Shown here piece by piece: positions 49,088 to 57,615 of a DNA stretch of 64,000 nucleotides; position 1 is the stretch's first letter; each line of letters starts with the position of its first letter. The notes beneath the pieces were generated by a model. The model was given only the letters and a program-made list of their open reading frames with translations. It made no database searches and was not told the origin of the DNA. This DNA is from Hyunsoonleella aestuarii (GTDB lineage Bacteria > Bacteroidota > Bacteroidia > Flavobacteriales > Flavobacteriaceae). The DNA is taken from NCBI RefSeq assembly GCF_006148925.1, contig NZ_VAWB01000001.1, positions 1,330,001 through 1,394,000 on the forward strand. Reading direction: 5' to 3'. The position numbers and the translations under genes are program-made.

Positions 49088-49414
49088 TTAAAGCATACCT
49101 AGTTCAAGTTTCGCCTCTTCACTCATCAAATCTTGAGTCCAAGGGGGGTCAAAAGTAATTTCCACTTCAGCGCTCTTTACGTCATTTAGCGACTTTACTT
49201 TTTCTTCAACCTCAAGAGGCAAAGTTTCTGCTACTGGGCAGTTAGGAGTTGTTAATGTCATTAGTATTTTAACATCGTAATCTTCGTTTACAAATACATC
49301 GTAAATAAGACCAAGCTCGTAAATGTCTACAGGTATTTCTGGGTCGTAAATAGTTTTTAAAACATTTACAATTTTTTCTCCTAACTCTGTTGTATCTATT
49401 GTTGTTTCACTCAT
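49088..49414 (-). CDS. SufT/MIP18-type iron-sulfur assembly protein (DUF59)
   Basis: A 108-residue DUF59/MIP18 family protein. Marks are TIYDPEIPVDIYELGLIYDV, the TLTTPNCPVAETLPLEVEEK segment with the conserved Cys, and EITFDPPWTQDLMSEEAK. Proteins of this type (SufT, PaaD-like, CIA2/MIP18) help pass iron-sulfur clusters to target proteins. It stands between sufE and DUF2480 on the same strand, consistent with a maturation role in the SUF system. Confidence 0.93.
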   Translation of the reverse strand: MSETTIDTTELGEKIVNVLKTIYDPEIPVDIYELGLIYDVFVNEDYDVKILMTLTTPNCPVAETLPLEVEEKVKSLNDVKSAEVEITFDPPWTQDLMSEEAKLELGML

Positions 49415-49491: not shown

Positions 49492-49920
49492 TTAATTCAA
49501 CTGTGTTTGGTATGCAATGGCATACATTTTTAATTGTTTAACCATACTCACCAATCCGTTTGCACGAGTAGGAGAAAGGTGTTCTTTTAAACCAATTTTA
49601 TCGATAAAACTGGTGTCGGCATCAATAATGTCTTTTGGATGTTGATTTGAAAATACACGAATTAAAATTGCTATGATGCCTTTAGTAATTATGGCATCGC
49701 TATCTGCAGTAAATTCAACTTTATCATCTTTCATTTCGGCATGCACCCAAACCTTACTCTGGCAACCTTTAATAATATTGCTTTCAGTTTTATATTGGTC
49801 GTCAATTAAAGGAAGTTCTTTCCCTAAATCAATCATATATTGATAGCGTTCCTCCCAATCTTCAAACATTGAGAATTCGTCTATTATTTCTTCTTGGATT
49901 TCATCAATACTCACAATCAC
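49492..49920 (-). CDS. sufE: SufE-type sulfur acceptor
   Basis: SufE takes persulfide sulfur from the cysteine desulfurase SufS and hands it to the SufBCD scaffold. The 142-residue product has the family core IQEEIIDEFSMFEDWEERYQ, ELPLIDDQYKTE and the active Cys53 in NIIKGCQSKVWVHAE, then LSPTRANGLVSMV near the end. The start is a GTG. It is separated from sufS by the M43 and META genes and has its own promoter at the end of the META gene. Confidence 0.96.
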   Translation of the reverse strand: MIVSIDEIQEEIIDEFSMFEDWEERYQYMIDLGKELPLIDDQYKTESNIIKGCQSKVWVHAEMKDDKVEFTADSDAIITKGIIAILIRVFSNQHPKDIIDADTSFIDKIGLKEHLSPTRANGLVSMVKQLKMYAIAYQTQLN

Positions 49921-49931
49921 AAATTTTTATG

Positions 49932-49962
49932 CAAAAATACAACATCAAAAGTTGCTATTCAA
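49932..49962 (-). promoter_or_regulatory. Complete Bacteroidota-type promoter for sufE
   Basis: On the minus strand TTG (49962-49960), 20 bases, then TATTTTTG (49939-49932), a full match to TTG-N(17-23)-TAnnTTTG, 11 bases before the sufE GTG. It overlaps the 3' end of the META gene, so sufE-sufT-DUF2480 can be transcribed apart from the upstream genes. Confidence 0.6.
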
Positions 49963-50746
49963 TGTTTTCAGCTATTGATAAGATTTCTTTGACAAGTGAT
50001 GCGATAGCCTCTGGAGGATTACCATCGTCGAACCCTTGTGTCTTATATACGGTTCCATTTTTAGTTATGGTTAATCGTGCCATGGGCGCACCATCAAATT
50101 GATGTTTTTTAGAGGGAGGGTCTAGATTTTCAATATATTTAACTTCAATATTTTCAATAGCACTTACAAGTTTATTCCAGTCTGATTCTGAGCAGTTTTT
50201 TATAATGGCATCTTTTCCTCTTTTACTTGAAACCGATATGTGTTTGTTATCAATTTTGATGTGTTTAAAATAACCTCGGGAACTGGCGCCATATTCAAAG
50301 CTTAACATTGTTTGAATTTCTTTTGTTGCAACAACAAGTAATGTTTTATTCTTAAATAACGAAAAACCGCTTTCTGAGAACAAAATGGTATTGGCATCTT
50401 CAAGTGCTTTTAGCATTTTAGATTCTATGGCATTGGCCGCGTCTTGACATAACATTTTTGTAGATGCCATCGCTCCAAATTTTAACATTTCGTTATCCAG
50501 TAAATAAGAACCATAAAATCTATTACAACCTGAAAAACCTGATGCTTGCTTCGTGTTTTTATCAAATGAAATATTTAAGTTGAATGTCGAAACATCTGCA
50601 TAACTTATTTGTGCAATATTATATAATCCACTTAGTTCTTTCAAGGTTGAATTTTCTGGCTCTAAACTTTGCATAATTTGATAATCTGATGGTCCCCAAC
50701 AACATCGTAATATAATTATACTGAGTGTGCTTAAGATGAATTTCAT
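49955..50746 (-). CDS. META domain-containing lipoprotein
   Basis: A 264-residue protein. The preferred start is the ATG of MKFILSTLSIIILRCCWGPS, a signal peptide with a probable lipobox Cys near 15-16; a longer frame from a TTG would begin inside the upstream terminator. Residues about 45-155 fit the META/HslJ domain (FDKNTKQASGFSGCNRFYGS, MASTKMLCQDAANAIESKML). The C-terminal 100 residues (HISVSSKRGKDAIIKN, PMARLTITKNGTVYKTQGFD) form a second unrecognised domain. META proteins are stress-linked envelope proteins of uncertain function. It lies between the M43 gene and sufE. Confidence 0.8.
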   Translation of the reverse strand: MKFILSTLSIIILRCCWGPSDYQIMQSLEPENSTLKELSGLYNIAQISYADVSTFNLNISFDKNTKQASGFSGCNRFYGSYLLDNEMLKFGAMASTKMLCQDAANAIESKMLKALEDANTILFSESGFSLFKNKTLLVVATKEIQTMLSFEYGASSRGYFKHIKIDNKHISVSSKRGKDAIIKNCSESDWNKLVSAIENIEVKYIENLDPPSKKHQFDGAPMARLTITKNGTVYKTQGFDDGNPPEAIASLVKEILSIAENIE

Positions 50747-50779
50747 GAATATTGTTTTAGTTCGAAATTGAATGTACAA

Positions 50780-50805
50780 AAAAGACGCCAAAGTTGGCGT
50801 CTTTT
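50780..50805 (-). terminator. Intrinsic terminator after the M43 protease gene
   Basis: AAAAGACGCCA and TGGCGTCTTTT are perfect 11-base arms with a four-base loop; on the minus strand a T-run follows. It isolates the M43 gene from the META gene. Confidence 0.88.
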
Positions 50806-50835
50806 AAAATTTATCTAAAAAGGATGTTTAACATA

Positions 50836-51915
50836 TTACCTTTGACCAGTAGCTAGTAGAGCACGCATTCTGTTGCGTTGTCCGTCTGTAAACATGTACA
50901 TGCAGCTATCATTTGTATAATCCATATAATTCATAGTCATATCAGCAGTTTTACAACTAACAGAAGGATATGAAGGGCAGCCGTAATTTGCACCACCTGC
51001 ACTTGGTGTATCTGCAACAAAATCGTCTTGACGACATCTTCCATCACCCCAAATATGTCTTAAATTTAAGTAGTGACCCACTTCATGGGTAGCAGTTCTT
51101 CCCTCATTATATGGTGATGCTGAACCTCCAGGTAGGCTAGAATAAAGTATTACAACACCATCTGTGCTAGAAGGTCCCCCAGGAAACTGAGCATATCCTA
51201 AAATGCCACCACTAATATTACATATCCAAATATTCAAAGTTGTATTTGGACTAGTAGGATCTATTCCTCCTCTTGATGATTTTTTCATATCATCGTTAGT
51301 ACTCCAAGCAGAAATACTAGTTGATTTTCTTGTGATATCTGACGATGCGTTGAATAAAAATTCTATTTCTGTATCAGTTACATCATTTACAAATGTAGAA
51401 CCTGAAGGCAACATGCTTATATTTGAATTATTATTTCTAAAATCGGTATTTAAAACATCTATTTGCGCTTGAATTTGATTATCACTAACATTTTGACTTG
51501 AATTACTGTATAATACATTTACATGAACAGGGATTTTAATGATTCCTAATCCATCATCAATAGGCGCAACATCCACATCATCGCCTCCGTCATTATTTCC
51601 ACCTCCACCATTTCCAGGTTTGTCTGGTTTGCCTTTTGCAGCTAAGAATTTTCGAGTTTGATATTCAATGTCATACATTTTTTTTGCTTGCCCTGGATTC
51701 TCGCTTAGTTGCCTGTTCAAGACATTCATAGTATGACAGGTTTTTAATTTATCCTTTGAATTTGCAGATTTGACAACTGATCCATCATCACCATCAGTGT
51801 AAACATAAAAATCGCTCATATCGATTTCTTGTTCTTGGCTTAAGGTTTTAGAATCATCATCACATGCTGTAAATAAGAAGGCTACAGCAACCATACATAA
51901 GAGTACTTTTTTCAT
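50836..51915 (-). CDS. M43 family zinc metalloprotease, lipoprotein
   Basis: A 359-residue pappalysin/cytophagalysin-type (M43) metalloprotease. It has a lipobox (FLFTAC, Cys18) followed by DDDSK. A Gly/Asn/Asp-rich linker (about 100-115) joins an N-terminal segment to the catalytic domain, which holds the metzincin motif HEVGHYLNLRH (277-287) and a Met-turn in ADMTMNYMDYTND. Conserved Cys pairs flank the site (CRQDD, YGCPSYPSVSC). Family members cut extracellular proteins. It ends at its own terminator and lies within the suf region without an evident tie to iron-sulfur assembly. Confidence 0.92.
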   Translation of the reverse strand: MKKVLLCMVAVAFLFTACDDDSKTLSQEQEIDMSDFYVYTDGDDGSVVKSANSKDKLKTCHTMNVLNRQLSENPGQAKKMYDIEYQTRKFLAAKGKPDKPGNGGGGNNDGGDDVDVAPIDDGLGIIKIPVHVNVLYSNSSQNVSDNQIQAQIDVLNTDFRNNNSNISMLPSGSTFVNDVTDTEIEFLFNASSDITRKSTSISAWSTNDDMKKSSRGGIDPTSPNTTLNIWICNISGGILGYAQFPGGPSSTDGVVILYSSLPGGSASPYNEGRTATHEVGHYLNLRHIWGDGRCRQDDFVADTPSAGGANYGCPSYPSVSCKTADMTMNYMDYTNDSCMYMFTDGQRNRMRALLATGQR

Positions 51916-52077: not shown

Positions 52078-53292
52078 TTAAGAAAGCATCATTTTTGCTT
52101 TCTTAACGCCTTCAACTAACAAATCAATTTCTTTTTTTGTGTTGTAGAATGAAAAAGATGCTCTTACCGTACCAGGAATTTTATAGTAATCCATGATAGG
52201 TTGAGCACAATGGTGCCCTGTACGAACGGCAATTCCTAATTTATCTAGAATGGTACCAATATCGTATGGATGAATACCCTCAAGGTTAAAAGATATTACA
52301 GATGTTTTGTTTTTTGAAGTACCATATATTTTTAAGCCTTCAATTTGCAAAAGTTTTTCATTGGCATATTCAAGGAGCTCATTCTCATAAGAAGCAATAG
52401 CTTCAAGACCAATAGCATTCATGTAATCAATGGCTGCGCCAAATACAATACCTCCAGCAATATTTGGGGTCCCAGCTTCAAACTTATGCGGTAAATCCGC
52501 GTAAGTTGTTTTTTCAAAAGTAACTTCGGCAATCATTTCACCTCCACCTTGATATGGAGGAAGTTTTTTAAGCCATTCTTCTTTACCGTATAACATACCA
52601 ACACCTGTTGGACCACACATTTTATGTGCTGAGGCCACATAAAAATCGACATCCAAATCTTGTACATTAGCTTTTATATGAGGGCTAGATTGAGCGCCGT
52701 CTATTAGTACAGCAGCTCCTACTTTATGAGCTTCATCAATGATATACTCAATAGGATTAATAGTTCCCAATGCGTTAGAAACATGATTAACAAAAACAAG
52801 TTTAGTATTGTTTGAAAGAAGCTCATCATATTTGGCCATTACTAATTCGCCGTCCTCATTCATTGGAATAACTTTTAGTATGGCTCCTGTTCGTTCGCAT
52901 AACATTTGCCAAGGCACAATGTTGGAATGATGTTCTAGAGCGGATACTATAATTTCATCATCTTTTTTTATTAACGAGGAAAATCCATGAGCTACTAAAT
53001 TAATACCATGGGTTGTTCCGGATGTGAAAATAATTTCATGTGAAAATTTAGCATTAAAATGACTTTGTATTTTTTGCCTTGCCTGCTCATATAGGTCGGT
53101 TGCTTCTTGACTTAAGGTATGGACACCGCGATGAATATTGGCATTATAATTTGAATAATAATCTACAATGGCATCAATAACTGGTTTAGGAGTTTGGGAT
53201 GTCGCTGCATTATCAAAATACACTAAAGGTTTACCATTTACTGTACGAGATAAAATAGGGAAGTCTTTTCTAATGTTTTCAACGTTGAACAT
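52078..53292 (-). CDS. sufS: SufS-type cysteine desulfurase
   Basis: SufS is a PLP enzyme that removes sulfur from cysteine as a persulfide for iron-sulfur clusters. The 404-residue product has the PLP lysine Lys224 in ASAHKMCGPTGVGMLYG and the active Cys362 in AVRTGHHCAQPIMDYY, with the SufS-type short loop. ALEHHSNIVPWQ and VLIDGAQSSPH are further family segments. It follows sufD by 14 bases, ending the sufB-C-D-S run. Secure. Confidence 0.98.
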   Translation of the reverse strand: MFNVENIRKDFPILSRTVNGKPLVYFDNAATSQTPKPVIDAIVDYYSNYNANIHRGVHTLSQEATDLYEQARQKIQSHFNAKFSHEIIFTSGTTHGINLVAHGFSSLIKKDDEIIVSALEHHSNIVPWQMLCERTGAILKVIPMNEDGELVMAKYDELLSNNTKLVFVNHVSNALGTINPIEYIIDEAHKVGAAVLIDGAQSSPHIKANVQDLDVDFYVASAHKMCGPTGVGMLYGKEEWLKKLPPYQGGGEMIAEVTFEKTTYADLPHKFEAGTPNIAGGIVFGAAIDYMNAIGLEAIASYENELLEYANEKLLQIEGLKIYGTSKNKTSVISFNLEGIHPYDIGTILDKLGIAVRTGHHCAQPIMDYYKIPGTVRASFSFYNTKKEIDLLVEGVKKAKMMLS

Positions 53293-53306: not shown

Positions 53307-54620
53307 TTACAAATCGAAACCAAGGTTCACACCTAATTTATTAGCAATAATTTTAGTGATGCGTTGTTTTAATTCTGGTATTTTAACAGAACTCATAACA
53401 TCATTACTAAAAGCATACATTAAAAGTGCTTTAGCTTCCTTTTCTGGAATACCTCTTGAGCGCATGTAGAACATGGCACTTTCGTCTAACTGACCAATGG
53501 TACATCCGTGTGAGCATTTAACATCGTCGGCAAAAATCTCTAATTGCGGCTTGGTATTGATTGTGGCTTTGTCACTTATTAAAATATTATTATTGGACTG
53601 AAACGCATTGGTTTTCTGTGCTTCTTTTTCAACAATAATTTTTCCATTAAAAACACCTGTAGAGTTTTCGCCAAAAATACCTTTATAGTCCTGATGACTT
53701 TCACAATTAGGCTCTATGTGATGCACTAATGTGTTATGATCTACGTGTTGTTTGTTTCCTAAAATAGTTACGCCCTTAAGTATAGAGTCTATACGCTGAC
53801 CTTCTTGGTAAAAATTAAGATTATTGCGAGTCAATTTTCCTCCAAATGCAAATGTATGAACCGAACAAACACTTTCTTGTTTTTGTTTTAGAAAAGTATT
53901 GTCTATTAGAGATGCGTTTGAGTTGTCATTTTGTATTTTGTAGTAATCAACTATAGCACGTTTCTTAGCAAAAATTTCAGTAACACTATTTGTTAATACT
54001 GAGTTATCAGTTAAACTTTGATGACGTTCTATTATTTGAACATGTGAATTCTCTTCAACCACAATTAAGTTTCTAGGCTGAAGCATGGTTGCAGATTCAT
54101 TTCCAGTTGAAAAGTGAATTATTTGGATTGGTTTTTCTACCAATTTATTCTTAGGAATATGAATATAAGCCCCTTCACTTGAAAATGCTGTATTAAGAGC
54201 AGGTAGACTATCTTTTGTTGCCGCTTTGTTAAAATAATGTTCAATTACCAAACGGTATTTGGGTTTAGACAGTGCCGCAGACATAAGGCATACATCCATG
54301 CCATCGTGAGTGGTTTGCGATAGGTGAGAAGAGTATTTGCCATCTATAAATACAATCTTATACGAGTCGATGTCATAAATAAAGTATTTTTTAACATCAC
54401 GGTATTCTATGGCATTTTCTTGCTTTGGAAAAACACTGTAATCTTCTTTAAGAATTTTATTTAAAGATGTATACTTCCATGCTTCTTCCTTTTTGGAAGG
54501 GAAACCTTTTTCTTCAAATGTTTTTATAGCATCAGTTCTAACATCGTGAACATAGGTGTCTATGTCTACCTTATTCTCGAAAACCATAAATGATGATAGT
54601 AACTTCTCTTTTAGTTCCAT
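53307..54620 (-). CDS. sufD: Iron-sulfur assembly protein SufD
   Basis: SufD forms the SufBC2D scaffold complex with SufB and SufC. The 437-residue product shows an N-terminal helical domain (SKKEEAWKYTSLNKILKEDY), the beta-helix core, and the C-terminal region with DDVKCSHGCTIGQLDESAMFYMRSRGI, in which the conserved Cys-His pair of SufBD proteins can be seen. Length and order, directly after sufC, fit SufD rather than SufB. Secure. Confidence 0.97.
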   Translation of the reverse strand: MELKEKLLSSFMVFENKVDIDTYVHDVRTDAIKTFEEKGFPSKKEEAWKYTSLNKILKEDYSVFPKQENAIEYRDVKKYFIYDIDSYKIVFIDGKYSSHLSQTTHDGMDVCLMSAALSKPKYRLVIEHYFNKAATKDSLPALNTAFSSEGAYIHIPKNKLVEKPIQIIHFSTGNESATMLQPRNLIVVEENSHVQIIERHQSLTDNSVLTNSVTEIFAKKRAIVDYYKIQNDNSNASLIDNTFLKQKQESVCSVHTFAFGGKLTRNNLNFYQEGQRIDSILKGVTILGNKQHVDHNTLVHHIEPNCESHQDYKGIFGENSTGVFNGKIIVEKEAQKTNAFQSNNNILISDKATINTKPQLEIFADDVKCSHGCTIGQLDESAMFYMRSRGIPEKEAKALLMYAFSNDVMSSVKIPELKQRITKIIANKLGVNLGFDL

Positions 54621-54630
54621 TTGCTTTTTG

Positions 54631-55383
54631 TTAAGCGTTCACTTCTTCTTTAATCCAATCGTATCCCTTTTCTTCGAGTTCGTGAGCTAATTCCTTGGTG
54701 CCAGATTTTACAATCTTACCATTGTATAAAACATGCACGAAGTCTGGAACAATATGGTCTAATAAACGTTGGTAATGCGTTATCACCACTACGGCGTTAT
54801 CTTTACTTTTTAATTTGTTAACACCATTAGCTACAATGCGCAATGCATCAATATCTAACCCAGAATCTGTTTCGTCAAGAATGGCTAATTTAGGTTCTAA
54901 CATAGCCATTTGGAATATTTCATTTCGCTTTTTCTCTCCTCCAGAAAACCCTTCGTTTAAGGAACGAGATAAAAACTTTCTATCAATTTCTAATAAATCA
55001 GCTTTCTCGCGAATTAGCTTTAGCATATCCTTTGCTGGCATGTCCTCTAGCCCTTGTGCTTTTCGAGATTCGTTAATGGCTGTTTTAATAAAGTTGGTCA
55101 CTGATACTCCCGGAATTTCAATAGGATATTGAAACGATAAAAACACACCCTTGTGGGCACGTTCTTCTGCAGCTAATTCATCAATATCTTCACCATTAAA
55201 TTCGATATTGCCTTTAGTTACTTCGTAATCTTCTTTCCCGGCAACAACAGAGGCCAAAGTACTTTTTCCCGAACCATTAGGACCCATTATAGCATGAACT
55301 TCACCTGGTTTAACTTCGAGGTTAATACCTTTTAAAATGCTTTTATCTTCAACACTTGCGTGTAAATTATTTATTTTTAACAT
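54631..55383 (-). CDS. sufC: Iron-sulfur assembly ATPase SufC
   Basis: SufC is the ABC-type ATPase of the SufBC2D complex. The 250-residue product shows Walker A GPNGSGKSTLA, Q-loop LSFQYPIEIPGVS, signature SGGEKKRNEI, Walker B AILDETDSGLD and the switch His in VVITHYQRLLD, all in the SufC form. It sits between the small lipoprotein gene (nine bases upstream) and sufD. Secure. Confidence 0.98.
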   Translation of the reverse strand: MLKINNLHASVEDKSILKGINLEVKPGEVHAIMGPNGSGKSTLASVVAGKEDYEVTKGNIEFNGEDIDELAAEERAHKGVFLSFQYPIEIPGVSVTNFIKTAINESRKAQGLEDMPAKDMLKLIREKADLLEIDRKFLSRSLNEGFSGGEKKRNEIFQMAMLEPKLAILDETDSGLDIDALRIVANGVNKLKSKDNAVVVITHYQRLLDHIVPDFVHVLYNGKIVKSGTKELAHELEEKGYDWIKEEVNA

Positions 55384-55392
55384 ATTTCTTTT

Positions 55393-55812
55393 TTAGCTTC
55401 CTAGTTTTACAACATCGTTTTCTTCGTCTTTTGGTGGAGAGACCTTCAGAATTTCAATAATTTCAACTTTTTGTTCCCAGAGGATTTGTTCGTCCTTTTT
55501 ATCGGTAATTTTTCCTCGTATTTCAACTTGTACCATATCTGTTGGTACTTTTTTATAGACTTCGGCTTGTTTATTAAGTTCATGCATTTTGTCGGTAACA
55601 AAAACACCATAAATATCAGCATGAGTTTGAAGAACTGCAGCACCATCAAAATAAACAAAATCACCTTTAAGTAATGTTAAGCCATCACTTTGCTTTGCTG
55701 TTTTTTCTGGGCTATCTGCACCAATTAATTCTTCAGTTTTTTCTGTTTTCGCTTCTTTTTTACAGCTAACAATTACTGTTAAACAGAAAAGCAACGTTAC
55801 TAGTTTTTTCAT
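55393..55812 (-). CDS. Small lipoprotein with NlpE C-terminal-like character inside the suf operon
   Basis: A 139-residue predicted lipoprotein: signal peptide with lipobox VIVSC (Cys17), a Lys/Glu/Thr-rich linker (18-45), then a beta-rich domain of about 75 residues. That domain (KGDFVYFDGAAVLQTHADIY, VFVTDKMHELNKQAEVY, VQVEIRGKI) recalls the OB-like C-terminal domain of NlpE, an envelope sensor of copper and surface stress, but without its Cys pair. It is set between sufB and sufC with gaps of only about 10 bases, so it must be co-transcribed. A signal between envelope state and iron-sulfur assembly is possible but unproven. Confidence 0.65.
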   Translation of the reverse strand: MKKLVTLLFCLTVIVSCKKEAKTEKTEELIGADSPEKTAKQSDGLTLLKGDFVYFDGAAVLQTHADIYGVFVTDKMHELNKQAEVYKKVPTDMVQVEIRGKITDKKDEQILWEQKVEIIEILKVSPPKDEENDVVKLGS

Positions 55813-55823
55813 TTTTAATAAAT

Positions 55824-57272
55824 TTAACCTACAGATCCTTCTAAACTTATTTCTAATAATTTTTGAGCCTCAACTGCAAATTCCATGGGTAGTTTATTCA
55901 AAACCTCTTTACTAAAACCATTTACAATTAAAGCAATAGCCTTTTCTGTATCAATACCACGCTGGTTACAATAGAAAATTTGATCTTCACCAATTTTACT
56001 AGTTGTAGCTTCGTGTTCTATTTTAGCCGATTTGTTTTTAGCTTCTATGTATGGGAATGTGTGGGCACCACATTCATTACCCATTAACAAACTATCGCAT
56101 TGCGAAAAGTTACGAGCATTTTCTGCTCTAGAGCTAATTTGAACTAAACCACGATAACTGTTTTGAGATTTCCCCGCAGAAATACCTTTTGAAATAATAG
56201 TTGATTTGGTGTTTTTACCCAAATGAACCATTTTTGTTCCAGTATCTGCCTGCTGATAGTTATTTGTAACTGCAATGGAGTAAAACTCACCAACAGAATT
56301 ATCACCTTTAAGAATACAAGAAGGGTATTTCCATGTCACCGCAGATCCCGTTTCAACTTGTGTCCAAGATATTTTAGCATTGTTTTCACAAAGACCTCTT
56401 TTAGTAACGAAGTTGTATACACCACCTTTACCTTCAGCATTTCCTGGATACCAGTTCTGAACTGTTGAATATTTTATTTCAGCATCATCTAAAGCGATCA
56501 ACTCAACCACTGCTGCGTGTAATTGGTTTTCATCTCTACTAGGCGCAGTACAACCTTCTAGGTAACTTACATAACTGCCTTCATCAGCAATAACTAAAGT
56601 TCTTTCAAATTGTCCAGTCCCTGCTTGGTTAATTCTGAAATATGTCGATAACTCCATAGGACATTTAACTCCCTTAGGGATATAACAAAAAGAGCCATCA
56701 CTAAAAACGGCACTATTTAAGGCGGCATAGAAATTATCCTTTTGCGGAACAACAGTGCCTATGTATTTCTTTACAAGTTCAGGATGCTCTTTAATAGCTT
56801 CCGAAATACTCATAAATATAATACCCTTTTCACCTAAAGTTTTCTTAAATGTTGTTGCAACAGAAACAGAATCTACAACTACATCCATAGCAACACCAGC
56901 TAGTTTTTTCTGCTCGTCTAGTGAAATTCCAAGTTTTTCAAAAGTTGCTAATAATTCTGGATCTACTTCATCTAAACTATCGTATTTAGGCTTGCTATTG
57001 GGTGCTGAATAATATGATATCCCTTGAAAATCGGGTTTTTCGTAATGCACATTTGCCCATTCGGGTTCGATCATGTCTTTCCAAATGCGAAAGGCTTCTA
57101 AGCGCCATTCGGTCATCCATTCTGGCTCTTCTTTCTTTTGGGAAATGGCACGCACAATACCTTCATTTAAACCATTTGGAAATGTGTCAGATTCAATATC
57201 AGTGTAGAAACCGTATTCATATTCTTTGGTCTTCAGCTCTTCCCGTAAATCATCTTCGGTATACTTCGACAT
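55824..57272 (-). CDS. sufB: Iron-sulfur assembly protein SufB
   Basis: SufB is the main scaffold of the SUF system. The 482-residue product begins [20 protein letters not shown]; a longer frame that would start upstream adds 25 residues that do not fit the family and would overlap the intergenic spacer. Marks are [40 protein letters not shown], and the C-terminal [20 protein letters not shown] with Cys and His of the cluster-assembly site. It follows sufA by 13 bases. Secure. Confidence 0.97.
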
Positions 57273-57285
57273 AATGCTTTTTATT

Positions 57286-57615
57286 TTATATTGAAAATGA
57301 TTCGCCGCAACCACAAGTACGGTTGGCGTTTGGGTTATTGAAAACAAAACCTGTTCCGTTTAAGCCTCCAGAATATTCTAATGTTGTTCCAATAAGATAT
57401 AAGAAACTTTTTTTGTCTACAATAATTTTAATCCCATTATCTTCAAAAACTTTATCACCGTCTTGTTGCTCCTTATCAAACTTTAAATCGTAAGACAACC
57501 CAGAACAACCCCCACTTTTAACGCCTACACGAACATAATCTGTGGATGCATTATAGCCATCATCAGTCATTAACTCAACGACTTTTTTTTTAGCTGTTTC
57601 TGAAACTTTTATCAT
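57286..57615 (-). CDS. sufA: A-type iron-sulfur carrier protein (HesB/IscA/SufA)
   Basis: A-type carriers receive clusters from SufBC2D and deliver them to apoproteins. The 109-residue product has the three family cysteines: Cys37 in [12 protein letters not shown] and Cys101/Cys103 in the C-terminal CGCGESF. It heads the suf run with sufB 13 bases downstream. No IscR/SufR-type regulator gene is in the window. The choice between the names sufA and iscA rests on its operon. Confidence 0.93.

Follow-up and report, generated by a model that had tools for sequence, protein, structure and literature searches.

A predicted lipoprotein with an NlpE_C-like OB domain is encoded between sufB and sufC across many Flavobacteriaceae

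Suf proteins act in the cytoplasm, NlpE is associated with copper and, to our knowledge, little is known of how bacteria of the Flavobacteriaceae type link the maintenance of their envelope with iron and oxidative stress. In E. coli, NlpE is reported to monitor lipoprotein trafficking, with its N-terminal domain acting as the contact for CpxA and its C-terminal cysteines forming part of its redox sensing (PMC6737893). In Muricauda olearia, momL was reported to be co-transcribed with suf at similar transcript levels; a chelator alone raised sufA, sufD and downstream genes about 2-fold, and indole under iron deficiency/chelation or H2O2 raised suf and momL several-fold (PMC5484670). A table of iron-responsive genes in Riemerella names, beside a SufA-family protein, SufB and SufD, an entry annotated “Outer membrane lipoprotein nlpE” with a locus tag located between the sufB and sufD tags (PMC5609570). 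The heading of that table reads “upregulated by iron” whereas the ratio is given as -Fe/+Fe; we take from it that the entry changes in the same sense as the suf genes. We know of no closer published precedents than the momL insertion and this Riemerella table; in the open-licence PMC literature on suf operons, NlpE and Riemerella, as far as its accessible excerpts extend, we found no description of an OB lipoprotein of the suf operon.

Here we analyze a 64,000-nucleotide stretch of DNA from Hyunsoonleella aestuarii (the window). Its minus strand carries, in this order, sufA, sufB, a lipoprotein gene, sufC, sufD, sufS, genes for an M43 protease and a META-domain protein, sufE and a DUF59 gene (Table 1). 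The lipoprotein gene is separated from sufB by 11 nt and from sufC by 9 nt, confirming the position and the gaps of about 10 bases given in the initial annotation. Pfam finds no Suf domain in its product and, unlike the cytoplasmic Suf machinery, the protein carries the signal of a lipoprotein. A promoter-pattern scan gave no match inside sufB, the lipoprotein gene, sufC or sufD and none upstream of sufA either, so that the scan is uninformative on co-transcription. A gene for a di-haem cytochrome c peroxidase (PF03150; 57811-58878) lies on the same strand, 195 nt upstream of sufA.

Table 1. Features of the suf cluster and of its lipoprotein gene in the window.
Feature	Position	Strand	Basis and remarks
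Lipoprotein gene, one NlpE_C-type OB domain	55393..55812	-	139 aa, ATG start; sequence, homologues, model
Signal peptide, residues 1-16	55765..55812	-	Sequence; Cys17 invariant in alignment
Lipid-attachment cysteine codon (Cys17)	55762..55764	-	Invariance; mature start C-K in 74/86 members
Polar linker, residues 18-43	55684..55761	-	Low pLDDT; faster evolving (omega 0.40 vs 0.18 in OB part)
OB barrel, residues 44-128	55429..55683	-	AlphaFold model and structure comparison
OB barrel elements (residues): b1 46-55, b2 58-63, b3 67-70, helix 74-86, b4 94-103, b5 114-125
sufB	55824..57269	-	Internal ATG at 57269; listed ORF starts TTG at 57347; PF01458
sufC	54631..55383	-	ABC_tran
sufD	53307..54620	-	PF01458
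sufS	52078..53292	-	Aminotran_5
sufA-like Fe-S carrier, first gene of cluster	57286..57615	-	PF01521
M43-type zinc protease with lipoprotein-like signal, sufS-sufE gap	50836..51915	-	PF05572
META-domain protein with second domain, sufS-sufE gap	49955..50791	-	PF03724
sufE	49492..49920	-	PF02657
DUF59 / FeS_assembly_P (SufT-like)	49088..49414	-	PF01883

The predicted signal peptide ends V-S-C at residue 17, and Cys17 is invariant in 67 aligned members of the family. While 22 of 86 members, including that of the window, match the strict lipobox [LVI][ASTVI][GAS]C, a looser pattern captures 85 of them, the exception being L057. The mature N-terminus reads C-K in 74/86 members and C-K-N-[DE] in 40/86. 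A surface-export signal is defined for C. canimorsus, and F. johnsoniae has been proposed to use one of this kind (PMC5080379); motifs of this type (K-(D/E)2, Q-x-(D/E)2 or S-(D/E)2 beside the cysteine) are present in 3 of the 86 members (L045, L058 and L077) and lacking in that of the window, although Hyunsoonleella's own signal may differ. Given this rarity, we infer a protein that probably faces the periplasm, and the outer membrane is predicted to be a likelier site than the inner one. Of the “outer membrane lipoprotein” that had been proposed, the lipoprotein part is supported by the signal and the invariant Cys17, and the outer membrane itself is plausible.

An AlphaFold model (71 sequences: the window protein and related loci) predicts the element order b1-b2-b3-helix-b4-b5 of an OB fold, with a pLDDT of about 97 over residues 51-120. 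Searched against the PDB with Foldseek, it returned E. coli NlpE as all of its top three matches, the best at E 2.2e-3 and none at or below 1e-3. Structural alignment with VIA-align gave a Z score of 9.9 to NlpE 2z4h_A (rmsd 2.5 over 80 residues; NlpE residues 123-209) and of 9.8 to NlpE residues 123-214, the C-terminal OB domain, with the next entry at 6.6.

At the level of sequence, the Pfam model NlpE_C (PF17185) matches 41 of the 67 aligned members at E <= 1, the best at 1.8e-8. In a search of 60 family genomes, 14 match at E <= 0.01, 7 above the curated Pfam cut-off of 22 bits, and in all 14 the match falls where tblastn placed the suf lipoprotein; the relatives L042, L031, L020 and L036 reach 27-30 bits. 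The window's own protein has no PF17185 match at E <= 1, and all five suf lipoproteins of the phylum sample are missed by the model at E <= 0.001. Comparison of the suf-family OB profile with four other NlpE_C proteins in hhalign gave a probability of 42 (E 2.7e-4), and the single window sequence a weak 4.6, whereas the same profile scored E. coli NlpE at E 2, inside the range of shuffled decoys. Used on its own as the query, the window protein retrieved nothing useful from Pfam, NCBIfam or the PDB; in the PDB, the family profile retrieved signal-peptide and other weak matches, and the relative L042 none. DUF4897, the best weak Pfam match of the window protein, was dropped as common to only 4 of the 67 members.

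On the strength of the predicted model, we conclude that the suf lipoprotein and NlpE_C have a common fold. Common descent is probable, resting on relatives and structure; because the window sequence has no PF17185 match and the OB profile scores E. coli NlpE at decoy level, this kinship is remote. The initial annotation had recognized an NlpE-like C-terminal OB domain from the motif G-D-F-V-Y-F-D-G-A-A-V, which is indeed present in the protein, and had made this proposal depend on profile similarity to NlpE_C. Such similarity does exist in the family, and the fold (NlpE being the best solved match) and the relatives above the PF17185 cut-off support the assignment, which the window sequence itself does not reproduce.

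Of 149 Flavobacteriaceae genomes, sampled at almost one per genus, 89 encode a homologue of the window protein according to tblastn. A profile built from 67 members produced 89 full-length matches in the same genomes, all at E <= 6.1e-31, with the next match at 1.1e-6; among those listed, the weaker matches start at the signal peptide. This jump in E-value, together with the signal-peptide-only nature of the weaker matches, indicates that the absences from the other 60 of the 149 genomes, where neither tblastn nor the profile found the lipoprotein, probably go beyond mere divergence. The same profile gave 9 full-length matches in 296 genomes sampled across the order and 5 matches in 296 genomes sampled across the phylum, every one in Flavobacteriaceae; outside this family, no profile score in the order sample was better than 5.9e-5. 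These searches scored the best 28 candidates per genome in the family sample and the best 14 in the order and phylum samples.

From 88 of the 89 matching genomes (G062 was left out) we retrieved 90 loci and kept 86, setting aside two second matches limited to the signal peptide (L084, L085) and two loci with one suf neighbor off the contig (L088, L090); the alignment behind the profile comprises 67 of these 86 proteins. In all 86 loci, which have both flanks on the contig and whose membership was confirmed by the profile, the gene lies between sufB and sufC, and no genome of the family sample has a second full-length copy among the profile matches listed. A second set, made up of the 80 best of 205 relatives found, consists of named loci from genera including Algibacter, Flavivirga, Tamlana, Bizionia, Lacinutrix and Psychroserpens. 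It shows sufB within 250 nt upstream in 80/80 and sufC within 250 nt downstream in 79/80; in the remaining locus, L252, the sufC match begins at residue 65. The survey of suf operons in Flavobacteriaceae on which the initial annotation had staked its proposal therefore reveals a conserved place in the operon.

On an unrooted six-gene tree of 68 genomes, the label for presence of the lipoprotein changes 9 times, at least 6 of these changes being required by supported branches; shuffling the labels gives 22. A weakly supported sufB tree gives 21 changes against 44.9 in shuffles. Since the six-gene tree is unrooted, its changes may be gains or losses; presence appears largely inherited, with several gains or losses that we think are mostly losses. 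The absence from 60/149 genomes and the nine label changes imply that the lipoprotein is dispensable. The median dN/dS of the whole gene is 0.28, with the OB part lower (0.18) and the linker higher (0.40) (Nei-Gojobori, own script; 78 close pairs from 39 sequences, namely 38 of the 80 named loci and the window), and these low values, especially the purifying selection on the OB part, indicate that the protein is used.

What else occupies the sufB-sufC gap bears on how this position should be read. Of the 60 genomes without the OB lipoprotein, the gap was resolved in 56: it is empty in 44 (gap <= 153 nt), and holds a lipoprotein of about 290 aa with a metallo-beta-lactamase (MBL) fold in 8, an S23-like protein in 3 and an unrelated lipoprotein-like protein in 1, the latter two kinds being named by inspection. 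Left unresolved were L162, L190, L191 and L192; in L191, where sufB is cut at the contig start, the gap has a 236-aa ORF. Overall, the OB lipoprotein accounts for 86 of 98 occupied gaps, and a lipoprotein-like protein of any sort for 95.

Of 142 resolved genomes, 11 carry the MBL-fold lipoprotein (PF00753) in this gap. It stands beside the OB lipoprotein at L058:2119-2985, L061:2110-2973 and L027:1921-2772, and occupies the gap without it in L135, L137, L142, L143, L153, L170, L172 and L186; an MBL match in L089 was read as signal-peptide similarity and left uncounted, as the gap there is too short for such a gene. An arrangement like that of momL and suf thus appears to extend beyond one species, the likeness being judged by the MBL fold.

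In another family of the order (f5; 30 genomes, L388-L417), the gap holds acetyltransferase-like, antitoxin/PIN-like, GxxExxY-like, 5-hydroxyisourate-hydrolase-like or AcfC-like proteins (names by inspection) or nothing. These varied occupants indicate a permissive junction, which in f5 looks like an insertion hotspot. In the f5 genome L418, where an AcfC-like gene follows sufB, inspection found no NlpE-like ORF of at least 90 aa within the following 9 kb.

Envelope proteins are likewise encoded in the sufS-sufE gap, as seen in the window (49955-51915) and in L277-L356. There, a META and/or second-domain lipoprotein-like protein, sometimes accompanied by an M43-type protease, is present in 35 of the 39 genomes that have the OB lipoprotein and in 11 of the 29 that lack it (80 genomes examined, 12 of them unresolved). 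On the six-gene tree, six independent pairs on supported branches differ on average the same way in 0.7, the opposite way in 0.7 and not at all in 4.6. We therefore rejected the OB and META lipoproteins as a functional pair, the association being gone once ancestry is counted, though six pairs are too few to argue against a weak link.

We put the probability at about 0.5 that the protein is a stress-timed envelope factor made together with Suf, whose OB barrel binds an envelope partner and which works outside Fe-S assembly. Cys17 and the flexible linker of about 26 residues would tether the protein to a membrane, most likely the outer one, on the periplasm side. Probably translated from the suf message, it would be made as the cell raises Suf, which is expected under iron shortage or peroxide damage to Fe-S proteins; the co-expression that we infer here has been measured in print for another occupant of the gap. 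The indications of such timing are indirect, namely the reported behaviour of momL and the Riemerella entry. The initial annotation had likewise suggested that the protein could tie envelope or metal stress to iron-sulfur assembly or simply share its timing. The lipoprotein may accordingly be seen as the envelope arm of the Suf stress programme, with no part in cytoplasmic Fe-S assembly, a direct share in which is unlikely because the Suf proteins are cytoplasmic. A second envelope protein or a ligand is the probable docking partner of the OB barrel, which, once bound, could stabilize, regulate or report on it under iron or oxidative stress. The place of such a gene inside the suf operon suggests joint induction of cofactor repair and envelope maintenance.

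Alternatively, the gene may be a passenger in a sufB-sufC gap that is permissive to insertions across Flavobacteriales, riding a well-expressed transcript without any link to iron or oxidative stress. Unrelated genes also occur in this gap, so that position alone may mean little: the MBL lipoprotein is found in 8 of the 56 resolved genomes that lack the OB protein and in 3 that have it, S23-like proteins (3) and another lipoprotein-like protein (1) are found as well, and in the 30 f5 genomes the gap holds diverse unrelated genes or nothing. However, within its family the OB lipoprotein outnumbers every other occupant by a wide margin (86/98, with 95/98 lipoprotein-like), and its OB part is under purifying selection (median dN/dS 0.18). 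A passenger would also be expected to move, yet the gene is in the gap in 86/86 loci, with no second full-length copy among the matches listed. We consequently hold this explanation to be somewhat unlikely, while giving it the most weight among the alternatives.

The protein could also act as an NlpE-like transducer, sensing the state of the envelope and passing a signal to a sensor in the inner membrane, which would in turn raise suf or other stress genes. Its OB domain is of the same type as that of NlpE, and it combines a lipid tether with a flexible linker; nevertheless, such a role is improbable, in view of the missing N-terminal NlpE domain (the reported CpxA contact, PMC6737893), the missing counterparts of the E. 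coli C-terminal cysteines (165, 231), the CpxA periplasmic domain found in 0/60 family genomes and the operon itself, among whose genes Pfam identifies no sensor. A last alternative is a periplasmic iron or copper binder that supplies or buffers metal for Suf, in favor of which are the operon context and the association of NlpE with copper. However, the mature-domain positions conserved at the 90% level (the lipid cysteine aside) include no Cys, His or Met, and cysteines besides the lipid cysteine occur in only 5/86 members. We rejected this idea as very improbable because no ligands are conserved.

A bolder and unlikely reading would make the sufB-sufC junction a docking gap that places envelope lipoproteins under the iron and peroxide control of Suf, its commonest occupant being a stripped-down NlpE-type OB lipoprotein in a Cpx-free envelope stress pathway that ties envelope state to Fe-S supply in Bacteroidota. 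A conserved lipoprotein of NlpE_C fold in an Fe-S operon offers a concrete, single-gene entry point to the envelope-stress question. The published momL insertion is also put in context, as the sufB-sufC junction takes exported proteins in many genera.

Compared with E. coli NlpE, the suf lipoprotein shares the OB topology b1b2b3-a-b4b5, the lipid anchor and, in alignment, a like first strand, G-x-[YF]-x-Y-x-[AD]-[DG]-A-A. Whereas NlpE has an N-terminal barrel, the suf lipoprotein is a stand-alone OB domain encoded in the suf operon, and the N-terminal NlpE domain (PF04170) was found neither in it nor in the window's genome. The suf family also lacks the disulfide cysteines of the NlpE C-terminal domain (Cys165 and Cys231): mature cysteines besides the lipid cysteine number none in 81/86 members, one in 4 and two in L080, where they lie at or before the domain start. 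The CpxA periplasmic sensor domain (PF16527) was found in 0/60 family genomes, that of the window included, with a positive E. coli control. We reject membership in the NlpE-Cpx pathway on these three grounds, as the missing N-terminal domain, cysteines and CpxA domain leave no visible route to signal through Cpx. The suf lipoprotein is NlpE_C-like in fold, yet it is no NlpE.

PF04170 itself is present in 49/296 genomes of the order, some Flavobacteriaceae among them, and in the 30 loci examined no suf gene lies within the sequence around it. In three Flavobacteriales loci (L360, L383 and L386), the META protein of the window matches in or beside an ORF with the NlpE N-terminal domain, and so, judging from these three, NlpE-type and META domains appear to keep company at loci beyond suf too.

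Like the suf lipoprotein, the lipoprotein-like proteins L274 and L275 from elsewhere in Bacteroidota are short and have NlpE_C as their sole domain; unlike it, they have two cysteines in the domain region and no suf gene within their locus. In the four non-suf Bacteroidota NlpE_C proteins examined, the first cysteine is shared (an invariant column) and the second lies near the domain end, that of L273 in another column. The genes L274:1414-1779 and L275:1411-1791 start directly after an ORF for a LolC/E-like permease (named by inspection), a suggestive neighborhood given the reported watch of NlpE over lipoprotein trafficking (PMC6737893). At L273:1372-2565, the NlpE_C domain is fused with a mechanosensitive-channel domain (PF00924). 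MomL of Muricauda olearia is the nearest counterpart in genomic position, being reported as likewise exported and encoded between sufB and sufC (PMC5484670), but it is a lactonase of the metallo-beta-lactamase fold, which is unrelated to that of the OB lipoprotein.
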